This document shows positions 7,746-52,231 of a DNA stretch of 64,000 bases, piece by piece (the stretch's first letter is position 1; each line of letters starts with the position of its first letter). Source of the stretch: Winogradskyella pelagia. Lineage in GTDB: Bacteria > Bacteroidota > Bacteroidia > Flavobacteriales > Flavobacteriaceae. The translations under genes were made by a program, and so were the position numbers. The notes beneath the pieces were generated by a model. The model made no database searches. It was not told the DNA's origin and worked only from the letters and a program-made list of their open reading frames with translations. The DNA is taken from the NCBI RefSeq assembly GCF_017581965.1, contig NZ_JAGEVF010000004.1:124001-188000 (forward strand). Direction: 5' to 3'.

Positions 7746-8597
7746 ATGTTTTTCAAATCAAAAGAAGGAAAAGACGAAATCATTACTCTTTACAACCAGA
7801 GGTTAAATACGCTGAATATCGACTATTCCGAAAAAACTTTAGAAACAAAGTTTGGAGCCACAAATGTTCTTATTACAGGCAATGCAAAAAAACCACCGCT
7901 ACTTCTTATTCATGGTACAGGCGGATGCGCTCCTCTAATTTTGGAATCGTTCTCGAATTTATCATCAACATATTGTGTGTATGCTATTGACGTACTTGCC
8001 CAACCTAATAAAAGTGCTGAGAACAGATTAGATATTAAGTCACTAGAGTATGGTGAATGGTTAACTGACGTCATAATCGCATTAGGATTAAAAGACGTTA
8101 CTTTAGTAGGATTTTCATTTGGAGGCTTAATTGCTCTAAAGACTTTAGAATTTAACGAAAGGCTCATAAAACGCGTTTTTTTAATAGCTCCAGTTTACAT
8201 CGTAAATGGAAGTCCTTTTGTAGGCTTATTTAAGATGTTTATTCCTTTAAAGAAATTCATAAAAACCAATAATCAACAGTACATTAAAAAAGTCATGAAT
8301 GTACTTTTTTCAGAGTATGATGATTTTGCCATCCAATTTATGGCAACGACGTTTCAAAATTGCAATATGGATTTTTCTCCTTTGCCAGTAATTCAAAAAG
8401 GTTCAGCAAAAGAGATCAAAACACCAATTACAGTTTTCGCTATGGAAAAAGACATTATGTTTCCCGGTAAAAAAATGGTAAAACGCGCCAAACGAATTTT
8501 TCCATCACTACATGACATCGTCTTGCTAGAAGATTCAAAACATGTTCCGAATACTAAAAATTTTAAATTAATTGAAAAGCTAATCTTAAAAATTTAA
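7746..8597 (+). CDS. Alpha/beta hydrolase
   Basis: 283-aa cytoplasmic alpha/beta-hydrolase fold enzyme. Seen: LLLIHGTGGCAPL (oxyanion-hole HG at 56-57), the nucleophile elbow VGFSFGG with Ser124, a probable acid in FAMEKDIMFPG, and the catalytic His in DSKHVPN near the C-terminus. The triad is therefore complete. There is no signal peptide. Substrate unknown; could be an esterase, lactonase or a hydrolase acting on a small antibiotic or signal. Its leader is a copy of the one in front of the ABC transporter, hinting at shared control or recombination. It is followed by an esterase gene 60 bp downstream, on the same strand. Confidence 0.85.
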   Translation: MFFKSKEGKDEIITLYNQRLNTLNIDYSEKTLETKFGATNVLITGNAKKPPLLLIHGTGGCAPLILESFSNLSSTYCVYAIDVLAQPNKSAENRLDIKSLEYGEWLTDVIIALGLKDVTLVGFSFGGLIALKTLEFNERLIKRVFLIAPVYIVNGSPFVGLFKMFIPLKKFIKTNNQQYIKKVMNVLFSEYDDFAIQFMATTFQNCNMDFSPLPVIQKGSAKEIKTPITVFAMEKDIMFPGKKMVKRAKRIFPSLHDIVLLEDSKHVPNTKNFKLIEKLILKI

Positions 8598-9911: not shown

Positions 9912-9931
9912 CCAAACCTATTTTTATATGA

Positions 9932-9983
9932 TTAGTGGTAGATTATAGGTCTTAGAGGAAACTACCAAGCAGTCTGCCACTAA
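9932..9983 (+). repeat. Long-loop inverted repeat with competing pairings
   Basis: TTAGTGGTAGA (9932-9942) pairs with TCTGCCACTAA (9973-9983), 10 Watson-Crick pairs and one G-U. The GGTAG inside the left arm can alternatively pair with CTACC (9962-9966). It lies in the 109-bp gap between the esterase and the small membrane protein and lacks a T-tract, so it is not a classical terminator. Possible mRNA processing element or recombination site. Confidence 0.45.
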
Positions 9984-10020
9984 ACATAAAATTTATCGTT
10001 AAGACTTATTTCAGAAAACA

Positions 10021-10596
10021 ATGAAACGATTAAGAAAATTCATAGAAAAGAATATTTCGGGCAAGAAGGTTTTAGGACTTTTTATCTTGACCAATCTTGT
10101 TTACGCCTTTATGCTGACTGTCACTATTCCCAAAACAATGGAATTCTCTAACGGAATGAAATTATTGGATATGATGCCCACAGGATATGATTTGAATTAT
10201 GTCAATGAATTATTCACTTCGCTTGGCGAAAATGGACGTTTGACGTATCTAACCAATCAAATACCTGTTGATATGATTTACCCACTGCTATTCGGACTTT
10301 CTTATTGTCTCCTTTTGGGTTATTTCTTGAAAAAATTGAACAAATTAAATTCCAATTATATTTATCTCTGCGTAATACCGATAATTGCCGGAATTGCAGA
10401 TTATTTGGAAAATATCGGAATTATCACAATGCTTAAAAACTATCCCGAGTTGAAAGAGACTGCAGTTTATACAACCAATATATTTTCAGTTATAAAAAGC
10501 ATTTCAACAAGTATATTCTTTATTGCATTAATAGCAATCTTAATTACACTTGGAATTAAAGTATTGAACAGAAAAAAAAGTGATAACACCGTATAA
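10021..10596 (+). CDS. Four-helix integral membrane protein of unknown function
   Basis: 191-aa hydrophobic protein. Predicted membrane segments: about 20-40 (VLGLFILTNLVYAFMLTV), 82-102 (IYPLLFGLSYCLLLGYFL), 116-135 (YIYLCVIPIIAGIADYL) and 160-183 (IFFIALIAILITLGIKV), separated by an extracytoplasmic loop of about 40 residues. The basic N-terminus (MKRLRKFIEK) suggests it starts inside. I recognise no family with certainty. It stands between hairpin-bearing gaps, which suggests a stand-alone acquired gene rather than part of an operon. Confidence 0.7.
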   Translation: MKRLRKFIEKNISGKKVLGLFILTNLVYAFMLTVTIPKTMEFSNGMKLLDMMPTGYDLNYVNELFTSLGENGRLTYLTNQIPVDMIYPLLFGLSYCLLLGYFLKKLNKLNSNYIYLCVIPIIAGIADYLENIGIITMLKNYPELKETAVYTTNIFSVIKSISTSIFFIALIAILITLGIKVLNRKKSDNTV

Positions 10597-10717
10597 AATT
10601 AATTACTGGTTTTAACCAATTTACGAAAGCCCTCGCGGACTGTCTATCTGTATTTTATTTGCTTAAACCACGCAACCAATCTTATACAAAACCCTTACCA
10701 AACGTATAAAGCAAACT

Positions 10718-11545
10718 ATGAAAAATTTGACATTTGTAATTTTATATATTCTTCTTTCAGGAGTACAAACCACATTTGGACAGAATGAAACAGATATTAT
10801 AGTAGGAAGTAAGTTCGTTATTAAATCTAGTATTTTAAATGAAGAAAGAACTTGTTTAATAAGTATACCTGATTCATATAATGATTCAACTGAAGTGGCG
10901 AAAAAATATCCAATTATCATATTATTGGATGGATATACTCATTTTAAAACAGCATCTGGAATAGTACATTTTATGAGTTCCAATAGAAACCGAAACAATT
11001 TAATGCCAGAAAGTATTATTATAGCCATAGAGAATGTTGACCGAGAACGAGATTTTACAGTTACAAAAATTAAGACCAAACGACCGAATACTATGGGAGG
11101 TGGAAGGAATTTTTTGAATTTCATTGAGAAAGAGCTAATACCATATGTTGATGAAAATTATAGAACAGAACCGTCTAGAACTCTCATTGGACATTCTTTA
11201 GGAGGTCTACTTACATTAAATTCTTATATGGATAAAAATAGCGTTTTCAATGCTTACATTTCTATAGACCCAAGTATTTGGTGGAGTGAAGAGATGATGA
11301 AAAACAAAGTTGATTCTATTTCATCAACATCATTTAATAAAAAACTTTATATAGCTACTGCCAATCAAGGAAAGGCTAGTTACGAGCGGAATAAAAAAAG
11401 ACACGACTATCTCTATGAATTAATTACAAAGAAATCGGAAGAACCTCTAAATGTCGAAATAAAGTATTTTGACAAGGAAAACCATCGCTCTGTACCATTA
11501 ATAGCTTTGTACGAAGGTTTAATCTACATTAATCAAGAGAATTGA
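10718..11545 (+). CDS. Secreted PF00756-type esterase
   Basis: 275-aa exported hydrolase with a signal peptide (to about residue 21, TTFGQN). The alpha/beta-hydrolase core shows YPIIILLDGYTHF, SRTLIGHSLGGLL with nucleophile Ser160, ISIDPSIWW, and YFDKENHRSVP supplying Asp and His. It is clearly related to the longer esterase at 8658-9911 (shared RTLIGHS and I-IDPS segments) but lacks its TPR-like tail, so this is a divergent pair rather than a recent duplication. Followed by a structured repeat at 11561-11635. Confidence 0.85.
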   Translation: MKNLTFVILYILLSGVQTTFGQNETDIIVGSKFVIKSSILNEERTCLISIPDSYNDSTEVAKKYPIIILLDGYTHFKTASGIVHFMSSNRNRNNLMPESIIIAIENVDRERDFTVTKIKTKRPNTMGGGRNFLNFIEKELIPYVDENYRTEPSRTLIGHSLGGLLTLNSYMDKNSVFNAYISIDPSIWWSEEMMKNKVDSISSTSFNKKLYIATANQGKASYERNKKRHDYLYELITKKSEEPLNVEIKYFDKENHRSVPLIALYEGLIYINQEN

Positions 11546-11661: not shown

Positions 11662-12363
11662 TTATTTAAAAAGTTGATTAACATTTGCTTTATAAAGTTC
11701 ACCAATAGGTACTGTATGATCACCCATATAAATTCTATTACCTTCTACCCTATCGATGTGTTTTCTTGCAACGGCAAATGACTTATGAACTTGAAGAAAA
11801 TCATTATCAGAAAGCAATTGGATGGTATCCGATATTTTTTCACGAATACTTATAGTAGTATTACCCGCTACAACTTTGGTATAGTTACCTGAAGCTTCAA
11901 TAAACAGAATATCATCTACATCAACCTGAATATGGCTATTATTTTGCTTTAAAAAGATATGTTGCCCTTCAGGTTTTATAGTTTCTTTACTTTCTTTTCT
12001 TATTCCTCTTGAGTCAGCAGCGGTCACTTTATTAATAGCACTTAAAAAGCGTTCAAAACTAAACGGTTTTAATAAGTAATCTACAACGTTTAATTCGTAG
12101 CCTTCAATCGCAAATTCACTATAGGCAGTCGTTACAATAACTTTTGGTGGAGATGATAAGGTTTTTAAAAATTGAAATCCTTTTAATTTAGGCATATTCA
12201 AATCTAAAAAAATAAGGTCAATATCATGTTTGCTTAAATAGTCGATAGCTTCGATAGCATCATAACAATTGGCTTTGAATTCTAAATTTGGCAACATATC
12301 ACAATAGCCTTTTATAATATCGTGTGCAATATGTTCGTCGTCTATAATGATATATGTAATCAT
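11662..12363 (-). CDS. LytTR-family response regulator
   Basis: Two-component output protein. The receiver domain (about 1-115) has acidic residues in IIDDEH, phospho-acceptor Asp54 in IFLDLNMPKLKGF, the TTAYSEF Thr/Ser and the LLKPF lysine. A LytTR DNA-binding domain follows (about 135-233) with VDDILFIEASGNYTKV and FLQVHKSFAV. LytTR regulators bind paired direct repeats about 21 bp apart. The gene overlaps the histidine kinase gene by 4 nt (ATGA), so the pair is translationally coupled. Likely target: the divergent ABC transporter operon and its own promoter, because both flank repeat pairs with that spacing. Confidence 0.93.
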   Translation of the reverse strand: MITYIIIDDEHIAHDIIKGYCDMLPNLEFKANCYDAIEAIDYLSKHDIDLIFLDLNMPKLKGFQFLKTLSSPPKVIVTTAYSEFAIEGYELNVVDYLLKPFSFERFLSAINKVTAADSRGIRKESKETIKPEGQHIFLKQNNSHIQVDVDDILFIEASGNYTKVVAGNTTISIREKISDTIQLLSDNDFLQVHKSFAVARKHIDRVEGNRIYMGDHTVPIGELYKANVNQLFK

Positions 12364-13160
12364 AAGCCTTTAATATTCAATGTAGCGTTATAGATTGTAT
12401 CTGTTTTAGATAGTGTTAAGGTATGCTTTTTTGGATATACCAGTTCTAATCTTCGTTTTAGGTTTTTTAATCCAATTCCTATATCAGGACTATCTTGTGC
12501 TTCATCAAAATTATTTTCTATTTCAAAGGTCACTTCATTATTATGCGCTGTTAATGTGATATGAACATACGCATGTTCTCTTAAATTTTCCACACCATGC
12601 TTAAAGGCATTTTCTAAAAGAATAATAAAAAGAAGCGGCATGATCTCATAATCAGTATTGTTTGTATCAATATTGAATTGTATATCAATCGCTTTATGGT
12701 AACGCATTTTATGAAGTTCGATATAATTCTCGAGATAGGTAATTTCTTCAGACAATAACACGGTGTCTTTATCGCCATCATAAATACTATAGCGCATCAT
12801 ATCAGAAAGTTTTAAGATGAGCTCTTGAGCTTTCTTAGCATCCTTATCTACTAAACCGTAAAGGTTATTCAGCATATTAAAAAAGAAATGTGGATTCACT
12901 TGACTTTTTAAATGCATTAACTCTGTTTTTGTTTTTTCGTTCTTTAATCTTATAAGTGCTTTGATTTGCTTAAAAATCCAATTTGCAATGGTGATAAATA
13001 GGATTAGAAAATACAGTGCAATGAACTCTTCAAATCCTTCTAATTTGCCTAAAGTATCATTAAAAATGACAAGGAGGAGGCCTATAAGTACTAGCGCTAT
13101 GTTGAAAAAGCGCTTTATAGTTTTCCTTTTTCTTTCTGGTATTTTAAAATTCATATTCAA
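12360..13160 (-). CDS. LytS-like sensor histidine kinase (His_kinase PF06580)
   Basis: 266-aa kinase with two N-terminal membrane helices (about 18-33 and 46-66) and only a short loop between them, so it likely senses something in or at the membrane. The His_kinase motif LKSQVNPHFFFNMLNNLYGL carries phospho-acceptor His91. The ATPase part shows LLFIILLENAFKHGV (N box) and DIGIGLKNLKRRL (G box). No periplasmic sensor domain: the arrangement resembles intramembrane-sensing kinases that monitor transporters, which fits the divergent ABC transporter. Coupled by 4-nt overlap to its response regulator. Confidence 0.92.
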   Translation of the reverse strand: MNMNFKIPERKRKTIKRFFNIALVLIGLLLVIFNDTLGKLEGFEEFIALYFLILFITIANWIFKQIKALIRLKNEKTKTELMHLKSQVNPHFFFNMLNNLYGLVDKDAKKAQELILKLSDMMRYSIYDGDKDTVLLSEEITYLENYIELHKMRYHKAIDIQFNIDTNNTDYEIMPLLFIILLENAFKHGVENLREHAYVHITLTAHNNEVTFEIENNFDEAQDSPDIGIGLKNLKRRLELVYPKKHTLTLSKTDTIYNATLNIKGL

Positions 13161-13194
13161 TATTACTTAAATAAAGTACCCTTTACAAATAAGT

Positions 13195-13223
13195 TGACAA
13201 ACAGTATGTGATGAGTGACAAAC
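13195..13223 (-). promoter_or_regulatory. Candidate LytTR operator facing the kinase gene
   Basis: TGACAAAC at 13195-13202 and again at 13216-13223, exactly 21 bp apart. On the minus strand this is two copies of GTTTGTCA, 35-63 bp upstream of the kinase ATG. The spacing is that expected for a LytTR dimer. Confidence 0.6.
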
Positions 13224-13268
13224 CACCATAAATGTGCTTTGAAGTGTCTTCATAACTTAAAAAAATGG

Positions 13269-13301
13269 GTTTGTCACTAATGCATGTACTTGTGTCACTA
13301 A
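13269..13301 (+). promoter_or_regulatory. Candidate LytTR operator facing the ABC transporter
   Basis: TGTCACTAA at 13272-13280 and 13293-13301, 21 bp apart; the first copy is part of GTTTGTCACT (13269-13278), the same core as the operator near the kinase gene but on the opposite strand. It ends 26 bp before the -7 box at 13328, a position suited to activation. Confidence 0.6.
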
Positions 13302-13327
13302 CGTTTTTTAGAGCCTAAAAACGCTTA

Positions 13328-13335
13328 TATGTTTG
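13328..13335 (+). promoter_or_regulatory. -7 promoter element of the ABC transporter operon
   Basis: TATGTTTG matches the Bacteroidota TAnnTTTG box. Transcription would start near 13341-13343, so the 22-nt repeated leader is essentially the whole 5' UTR, and the in-frame ATG at 13329 cannot be used. Confidence 0.55.
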
Positions 13336-13340
13336 TCTCA

Positions 13341-13362
13341 ATCAATCAAAAAACGAACAGTA
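13341..13362 (+). repeat. 22-nt leader identical to that of the alpha/beta hydrolase gene (copy 2)
   Basis: Same 22 nt as 7723-7744. Its last base is the A of the ATG at 13362. Confidence 0.8.
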
Positions 13363-14249
13363 TGGAACTTAGAATTGACAATCTATCAAAGACGTATTCA
13401 AACGGGATTAAAGCGTTACAAAACATTTCACTAGATATACCAACAGGGATGTTTGGTCTATTAGGCCCAAATGGTGCAGGCAAGTCTACGTTAATGCGAA
13501 CCATTGCAACACTGCAAGAAGCCGATTCTGGTTCCATTGTTCTTGGGGACATCGATGTCTTACAACAAAAAAATAATCTGCGGCGGGTATTAGGTTATTT
13601 GCCGCAACAATTTGGCTTGTACCCAAAAATATCTGCCGAGGTATTACTCAATCATTTCGCAGTCCTTAAAGGCATCACTCATAAAAATGAACGCCAAGAA
13701 TTGGTGAAAGCACTTTTGTATAAAACCAATTTATATGACGTGCGACAACAAAACCTTAAAGGTTTTTCTGGTGGGATGAAACAACGTTTTGGAATTGCAC
13801 AAGCTTTATTGAATAATCCAAAACTATTGATTGTAGATGAGCCAACGGCTGGATTAGATCCTGTAGAACGCAATCGGTTTTACAATCTATTGAGCGAATT
13901 AGGAGAAAAAACAGTGGTTATTTTATCGACGCACATTGTAGATGATGTTAAAGAGCTTTGCACAAATATGGCCATTATTAATAAAGGGCAAGTTTGTTTA
14001 AAAGGAAAGCCTCTAGAGATTCTAGAAAGTTTAAAAGGTAGAGTTTATCAAAAAACAATCGAGAAATCAGAATTGAACCTATATAAAGAAAATTATCAGG
14101 TCATCAGTGAACGATTATTTCTTGGAAAACCAACCATTCATATCGTAAGTGATACGAATCCAGGAGACGGCTTTTCACTTATTAATGCCGAATTAGAGGA
14201 TGTCTATTTTTCGGAAATATTCAATAATACTAAACTTAAATCTATTTAG
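13362..14249 (+). CDS. ABC transporter ATP-binding protein
   Basis: 295-aa nucleotide-binding subunit from the ATG at 13362 (MELRIDNLSKTYSNG). Walker A GPNGAGKS (35-42), Q-loop region LGYLPQQFGLY, signature FSGGMKQR, Walker B LLIVDEPTAGLDP and switch histidine in ILSTHIVDD are all present, so it should hydrolyse ATP. The C-terminal extension of about 80 residues is usual for exporter ATPases such as the bacitracin- or Nat-type. It pairs with the permease-peptidase fusion 2 nt downstream and is probably controlled by the divergent LytS/LytTR pair. Confidence 0.93.
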   Translation: MELRIDNLSKTYSNGIKALQNISLDIPTGMFGLLGPNGAGKSTLMRTIATLQEADSGSIVLGDIDVLQQKNNLRRVLGYLPQQFGLYPKISAEVLLNHFAVLKGITHKNERQELVKALLYKTNLYDVRQQNLKGFSGGMKQRFGIAQALLNNPKLLIVDEPTAGLDPVERNRFYNLLSELGEKTVVILSTHIVDDVKELCTNMAIINKGQVCLKGKPLEILESLKGRVYQKTIEKSELNLYKENYQVISERLFLGKPTIHIVSDTNPGDGFSLINAELEDVYFSEIFNNTKLKSI

Positions 14250-51552: not shown

Positions 51553-52231
51553 ACCAATTTCTTGTCTTATTGTAGATGATGAAAAATCATCTCAACGCGT
51601 GCTTCAGCATTTCATTGAACAAACGGAGGTATTGGCTTTAAATTCAATATGTAATAATGCTTCCGAAGCTTTTAAATATTTACAACTCAATCCTGGTATA
51701 GAATTGATTTTTTTAGATATCAATATGCCTCAACAATCTGGTTTAGACTTTTATAAAACCTTAAAAAAACCACCCAAAGTCATTTTCACAACGGCATATC
51801 CTCAATTTGCGGTAGAAGGTTTTGAGGTCAATGCTGTAGATTACCTCTTAAAGCCTATTGCCTATGAGCGCTTTCTTACCGCAATCAATAAAGCCATAGC
51901 ACTTAATAATGATGTTGACCAAACACCAGCATTTATTGTACTTAAAGAAAATAAAACCTTTCATAAATTAGAATTACAATCAATTAGTGTTGTTGAAGCC
52001 TTTGGTGACTATGTAAAAGTACATACCGATTCTAAGACTATAGTTACGCACAGTACCTTTAGTAAATTTCTCGAAAGTTTACCAGTAAATTTCCTGCGCG
52101 TTCATAAATCTTTTTCCATAAATCTGAATCACATGAGCCATCTTGCTGGTAACCAGATTATGGTAGGCAATCAAAATATTCCTGTTGGTCAAACCTATAA
52201 AAAAGCTGTTTTAAAAGCCTTAAATTTGTAG
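51539..52231 (+). CDS. LytTR-family response regulator (second system)
   Basis: 230 aa. Receiver domain with CLIVDDEKSSQRV, phospho-acceptor Asp in IFLDINMPQQSGL, TTAYPQF and LLKPIAY; LytTR domain from about 130 with HKLELQSISVVEAFGDYVKV and FLRVHKSFSIN. Pairs with the kinase upstream by overlap. No paired direct repeats like those at 13195-13301 were seen in front of this operon, so its target is probably elsewhere. Confidence 0.92.
   Translation: MSSRKPISCLIVDDEKSSQRVLQHFIEQTEVLALNSICNNASEAFKYLQLNPGIELIFLDINMPQQSGLDFYKTLKKPPKVIFTTAYPQFAVEGFEVNAVDYLLKPIAYERFLTAINKAIALNNDVDQTPAFIVLKENKTFHKLELQSISVVEAFGDYVKVHTDSKTIVTHSTFSKFLESLPVNFLRVHKSFSINLNHMSHLAGNQIMVGNQNIPVGQTYKKAVLKALNL

Follow-up and report, generated by a model that had tools for sequence, protein, structure and literature searches.

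A conserved, rigidly spaced mirror array of putative LytTR half-sites between divergent sensor-kinase and ABC transporter-peptidase operons in Flavobacteriaceae

The agr promoters P2 and P3 are divergent; the target of YpdB or BtsR is not known to be divergent from the regulator operon; modules of the Bce type use an OmpR-type regulator. Sites of LytTR regulators were described as repeats of 9–11 nt with 11–13 nt between them and no common consensus (PMC4847170), and FhRhHRS was given as the family motif (PMC4227749). In Staphylococcus aureus (regulator AgrA), the agr P2-P3 intergenic region carries two promoters and tandem LytTR half-sites at each of them; the AgrA pair is centred near −60, compared with about −57 here, and AgrA bends its DNA (PMC4227749). 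YpdB and BtsR of E. coli, like the system considered here, belong to LytS/LytTR-type pairs and use a direct repeat at similar spacing; the described target of YpdB, unlike the present one, has one pair of sites, A and B (PMC4847170). The LytTR Regulatory Systems (HdrRM, BrsRM) show direct repeats, mostly with 12 bp between them, near the regulator's own promoter (PMC6193735); they pair the LytTR regulator with a non-kinase membrane protein, whereas a histidine kinase and a receiver domain were found here. In Bce-type modules (BceRS-BceAB), a two-helix, short-loop kinase is described beside an ABC transporter (PMC3023708). A literature search (titles, abstract beginnings) gave no operator model for LytTR two-component systems of Flavobacteriaceae.

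The locus lies in a window of 64 kb, the whole stretch of DNA that was analysed; a sensor-kinase operon on the minus strand is divergent from a transporter-peptidase operon on the plus strand, and the array lies between them (Table 1). In contrast to agr P2-P3, six phased half-sites stand in one lattice, the left arm overlaps an inferred promoter, an ABC transporter-peptidase or another enzyme is the target, and the half-sites have a different sequence. Regulator: Pfam PF00072 and PF04397 both scored above cut-off, giving a receiver plus a LytTR DNA-binding domain; FLQVHKS agrees with the family motif in part, with F, the hydrophobic residues, H and S retained and Q and K replacing both R; the best NCBIfam match was BtsR (102 bits, far below the cut-off of 246). 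Among the PDB sequence matches listed for the regulator (60 of 138), the receiver part was covered and one match extended to residue 165; the same search with the 1097-aa permease-peptidase gave no match. Kinase: the alignment shows a conserved ATG at 13154, and the TTG at 13160 of the open reading frame list is probably not the start; a rough hydropathy scan predicted two membrane helices with a short loop. A kinase reminiscent of the intramembrane-sensing type stands beside an ABC transporter (hydropathy; divergent transporter operon), as in Bce-type modules; the output domain is LytTR instead of OmpR-type, the kinase is of the PF06580 type and the transporter is fused to an M1 peptidase; the likeness is one of analogy only. 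ATPase: the start is likely 13362, a conserved ATG, whereas the listed ATG at 13329 falls within the −7 box. The leader of the transporter operon (13341–13364, ending in AATCAATCAAAAAACGAACAGTATG) was strongly conserved among orthologues and is probably the translation start context. A second regulator with a LytTR domain is encoded at 51959–52222 (+); no second array was found beside it.

Table 1. Coordinates of genes, promoter elements and half-sites of the array (window numbering).
Feature	Position	Strand	Evidence
LytTR response regulator (receiver and LytTR domains), presumed to bind the array	11662..12363	−	Pfam Response_reg 67.6 bits, LytTR 55.1 bits
LytS-type histidine kinase	12360..13154	−	Pfam His_kinase 91.4 bits
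Inferred −7 box of kinase operon, TTATTTGT here, TAATTTGT in 16/30 orthologues	13185..13192	−	conserved block beside L1
L1, strongest	13195..13202	+	rank 1/322, mean score 13.0; 1.78 bits per column
L2	13216..13223	+	rank 2/322, mean 10.8; 1.21 bits per column
L3, weak here; stronger in Maribacter and more distant arrays	13237..13244	+	rank 6/322, mean about −2.5, >4 in 5/17; 1.02 bits
R3, weak	13248..13255	−	rank 5/322, mean 1.3, >4 in 4/17; 1.06 bits
R2	13269..13276	−	rank 3/322, mean 10.0; 1.13 bits per column
R1, proximal to transporter promoter	13290..13297	−	rank 4/322, mean 9.2; 1.25 bits per column
Conserved T-tract between R1 and −7 box	13305..13309	+	columns at 1.48–2.00 bits
−7 box TATGTTTG of transporter operon	13328..13335	+	TAnnTTTG in 30/30 orthologues
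ABC transporter ATPase	13362..14249	+	Pfam ABC_tran 105.2 bits
Permease fused to M1 peptidase domain, 1097 aa	14252..17545	+	Pfam Peptidase_M1, residues 874–1053

Repeats in the window: TGACAAAC was found on the plus strand at 13195 and 13216 (21 bp apart) and on the minus strand at 13269–13276 inside GTTTGTCACT; TGTCACTAA was found on the plus strand at 13272 and 13293, again 21 bp apart. The first-pass annotation had reported these two repeat pairs as mirror images with the same core on opposite strands; both the positions and the arrangement were confirmed, the array reached further than first noted, and a third, weaker half-site per arm and a rigid 134-bp frame were added. The words alone are not rare (64 kb: TGACAAAC, 3 against 2.39 expected; TGTCACTAA with ≤1 mismatch, 21 against 18.4 expected); all three copies of TGACAAAC and both exact copies of TGTCACTAA lie in register inside 107 bp. 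With a half-site matrix, whose underlying loci belong to the training set of the pair model described next, the two arms were the best 21-bp pairs of the window (scores 28.1 and 26.6), followed by R3+R2 of the same array (17.1) and then by a pair at 15.3. Pair model R1 was built from 36 of 42 arm sequences, the degenerate ones being omitted (both arms of L061 and of L063, the right arm of L023, the left arm of L062). The proposed search of the genome for additional pairs was run with it over 3.36 Mb (150 of 2175 first-look candidates scored; source locus within the training set), and only the two arms were returned at E < 0.1 (8.7e-6 and 2.0e-4); the next match (L131, E 0.114) fell on an AraC-type gene at its 5' end and was treated as chance. 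The loose pattern GTGACAN{13,17}TGACA was uninformative, since it gave 7 matches in the genome against 5 in a reversed control. Within the window, no second array was found with pair model R1, and the next window match of the array model described below (model R2) had E 0.038. Independent support for the array came from leave-one-out footprinting and from held-out arrays.

Orthologous loci: close orthologues of the permease-peptidase (76–100% identity) were found in 8 of 60 related genomes, source included, the remaining matches being ≤36%; 22 further loci (59–94%) came from Maribacter, Croceitalea, Winogradskyella, Aquimarina, Eudoraea, Polaribacter, Tenacibaculum, Christiangramia and others. 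The kinase was divergent from the ATPase in all 30 loci, and the regulator followed the kinase in all 22 long enough to tell. After removal of near-duplicates (<88% intergenic identity), 17 of 29 aligned intergenic regions were kept; L062 was omitted from the alignment (long gap to the kinase match); its spacing is nevertheless 134 bp, and model R2 includes it. Tenacibaculum ovolyticum has a second system (L068b, 9921–10617), which had no L1 or −7 match and was dropped. A sister system (L176–L181, L183, L184) shows the same divergent layout, with regulator 52–56%, ATPase 55–60% and peptidase-permease about 25–28% identical; its six-site scores were low in 7 of 8 loci and high in L178.

Conservation of the half-sites: the alignment (29 sequences, 17 non-redundant) gave three half-sites per arm in mirror orientation, with a 10-nt core AGTGAYAAAC, an 11-nt spacer and a period of 21 bp; repeat length and spacer fall within the LytTR ranges quoted above, and the LytTR-like spacing beside a LytTR regulator that had been noted at first reading was thereby borne out. 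The steps between the six half-sites are 21, 21, 11, 21 and 21 around a dyad. In a leave-one-out scan (matrix from the four main half-sites, scored species excluded; 322 position-strand columns, 17 orthologues; mean of all columns −19.5), the four reported half-sites took ranks 1–4, and the two predicted third sites, R3 and L3, exactly one further 21-bp step inward on the expected strand, took ranks 5 and 6, respectively. The score of L3 (−2.45) was scarcely above that of rank 7 (−2.63), an opposite-strand column that overlaps L1. Spacers held 0.59 bits per column against 1.02–1.78 in the half-sites; pairwise identity reached 0.71 over the four main half-sites, against 0.57 over L3 and R3 and 0.42 over the spacers; the autocorrelation of conservation peaked at lag 21 among lags 3–49. 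From L1 to the −7 box the distance was 134 bp in all but one of the 30 loci; the exception, L068, has 133 bp.

Promoters: the −7 box that the first-pass annotation had placed after the second pair begins 30 bp past the last half-site and was perfect in every orthologue; no clear TTG element at −33 was seen upstream of it in the orthologue sequences. The −7 box of F. psychrophilum spans −12 to −5 (PMC9723704); the transporter start would therefore be 13340 and the centre of R1-R2 about −57. On the kinase side, the block 13192–13185 was the sole conserved −7 candidate found; it reads TAnnTTGY in 17 of 30 orthologues and any four letters plus TTGY in 27 of 30, and is not canonical. TAnnTTGY is a promoter motif of F. 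psychrophilum, to which the majority form of the kinase box fits (PMC9723704). The kinase start would then lie near 13180 and L1-L2 at −15 to −43 (centre about −29), a predicted repressing position. An agr-like pair centred near −60 was thus found at one promoter and not at both (right about −57, left about −29, from inferred starts). Scans for sigma-70 promoters and terminators gave nothing; the former result was as expected, because the phylum uses another promoter consensus.

Most probably the array is a switch acting in both directions under the LytTR regulator of the adjoining kinase operon. Its 110-bp core would act as a bidirectional operator, the phosphorylated regulator binding as tandem dimers to 10-bp half-sites two helical turns apart. 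R1-R2 would be an AgrA-like activator site for the transporter-peptidase operon, served by the perfect −7 box and working without a clear −33 element; L1-L2 would overlap the kinase promoter, so that the kinase-regulator operon would most likely be limited by autorepression. Across the dyad, the weaker inner sites, L3 and R3, stand 11 bp from each other and would join both arms on one DNA face; occupancy could therefore spread co-operatively and couple the two promoters, and six sites on one face would be expected to bend the DNA coherently. Taken in full, with autorepression included, this bidirectional-operator reading is considered moderately probable; that the half-sites are LytTR operators of either sign, acting as above or with both arms activating, appears highly probable from sequence comparison.

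Activation by both arms, in which the kinase operon too would be turned on, by the left pair or by L2-L3 (centred at about −50), with positive feedback as in agr P2-P3 or the streptococcal LytTR Regulatory Systems, is judged unlikely, with several points to recommend it: autoactivation by HdrR via direct repeats is documented (PMC6193735), the arms mirror each other and L2-L3 would lie near an activating position. It accords poorly with L1, the best conserved site, adjoining the only kinase −7 candidate, which sets L1-L2 at the span given above. With L1-L2 lying over the inferred kinase promoter, autorepression is more likely than autoactivation.

Model R2 (a 155-column sequence model trained on the orthologous arrays) was searched in 299 family genomes and gave 28 places at E ≤ 1.4e-5, a lower bound because ten candidates were scored per genome under strict filters. 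For a held-out set, 17 of 29 extracted arrays were scored (omitted: 6 in or near-identical to the training set, 1 tandem copy, 5 with indels or partial); the six best-scoring of 294 columns were, in this order, L1, R1, R2, L3, L2 and R3, the same six as before, and R3 (−4.85) had another column (−5.43) close behind it. Among the 13 held-out arrays that diverge most, L3 took rank 2, L2 rank 5 (>3 in 2 of 13) and R3 rank 8; L2 and L3 therefore exchange strength between lineages. Across the order, 246 genomes were searched and 7 gave a match at E ≤ 1e-3, six of them from the same family; the seventh match (0.6-Mb genome, 3.6e-4) had no adjoining regulator or kinase and is probably chance.

Association with the regulator-kinase pair: 23 of the 28 places adjoin a regulator and/or a kinase, one is cut by a contig end, and four do not adjoin either (L123, the tandem copy in L115, L125 and L128); the L123 array precedes an ATPase-peptidase pair with no regulator within the 6 kb read, and that of L125 adjoins an exported-protein gene and an esterase gene. 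Conversely, 30 regulator loci gave a match to model R2 at E ≤ 4e-4 in 22 cases (at least 6 of these being training loci or the same records), at 0.001–0.02 in four (including L143, which holds only the array edge, the bulk lying outside the locus), at 0.2 in one, and none in three. A further 20 regulator loci, none of them among the 28 places, were scored: 14 stood above the shuffle 95% level (8.0) of the six-site score and 6 under it, and 7 of the 20 beat the highest of 100 shuffles; the shuffles were mononucleotide, and the best six-site position was allowed in coding as well as intergenic DNA. The source genome encodes nine LytTR domains, and no array was found at the other eight loci (seven elsewhere, one in the window); the single match there, at E 0.004 (L193), lay inside a helicase-like coding sequence and was treated as chance, so that matches weaker than about 1e-3 are uncertain and the E-values of model R2 are rough.

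The gene opposite the array changes. A 390-aa metallophosphoesterase gave full-length matches in 16 of 54 loci (query included, 56–100% identity), an ankyrin-metallophosphoesterase stands opposite in L111, L115, L116 and L120, and a beta-lactamase-fold protein in L130, where the array is weak (E 2.4e-4; score >3 at L1 and L3 only). For the kinases beside the array in L115, L116, L120 and L127, at least six membrane helices are predicted, against two here, and the sensor part therefore varies too. Array-like matches in L133 (E 3.1e-4) and L125 (E 1.4e-7) lie in clusters with homologues of the alpha/beta hydrolase (79%) and esterase (87%) of the window (7746–8597 and 10718–11545); small exported proteins of ~205 aa with no Pfam match adjoin them.

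Since the array tracks the LytTR-kinase pair and is absent from the eight other LytTR loci, the half-sites are strongly supported as putative LytTR operators; the array is assigned to the LytTR regulator by association and geometry. Binding of the array by another transcription factor, with the LytTR regulator acting elsewhere, is improbable: the half-site fits the LytTR consensus only loosely, as such a reading would have it, but the 21-bp tandem spacing is LytTR geometry and the array follows the regulator-kinase pair across changed opposite genes. That the array stays with the pair through these changes makes self-regulation together with control of the transporter, as predicted at the outset, the best reading; what became doubtful is the sign of the self-regulation, the left arm overlapping the inferred kinase promoter. 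That the conservation stems from a small gene or a structured RNA instead of operators is very improbable; the nearly indel-free stretch from L1 to the −7 box would suit this reading, against which no Rfam match was obtained at gathering score, 0 of 6 frames were stop-free in all 17 sequences, and conservation is concentrated in half-sites phased at 21 bp. Chance repeats, compatible with words that alone are about as frequent as expected in 64 kb, can practically be dismissed in view of the in-register conservation in 17 non-redundant orthologues and in the held-out arrays.

Much the same switch appears to precede other genes in related bacteria. A wider reading is offered tentatively: the array may be a portable two-way promoter cassette, with six LytTR half-sites phased round a dyad and one nucleoprotein unit wrapping or bending about 110 bp, which would repress the kinase operon and activate the opposite operon in one co-operative step; in Flavobacteriaceae the regulator-kinase pair would keep it, and the effector gene opposite would change from case to case: an ABC transporter-peptidase, a metallophosphoesterase (ankyrin repeats present or absent) or perhaps a beta-lactamase-fold protein. 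For a LytTR two-component system of Flavobacteriaceae, the array provides an operator model that is specific and open to test; its fixed six-site frame makes co-operative LytTR assembly testable by simple spacing changes, and effector exchange facing an unchanging switch would clearly exemplify the re-use of a regulatory module.
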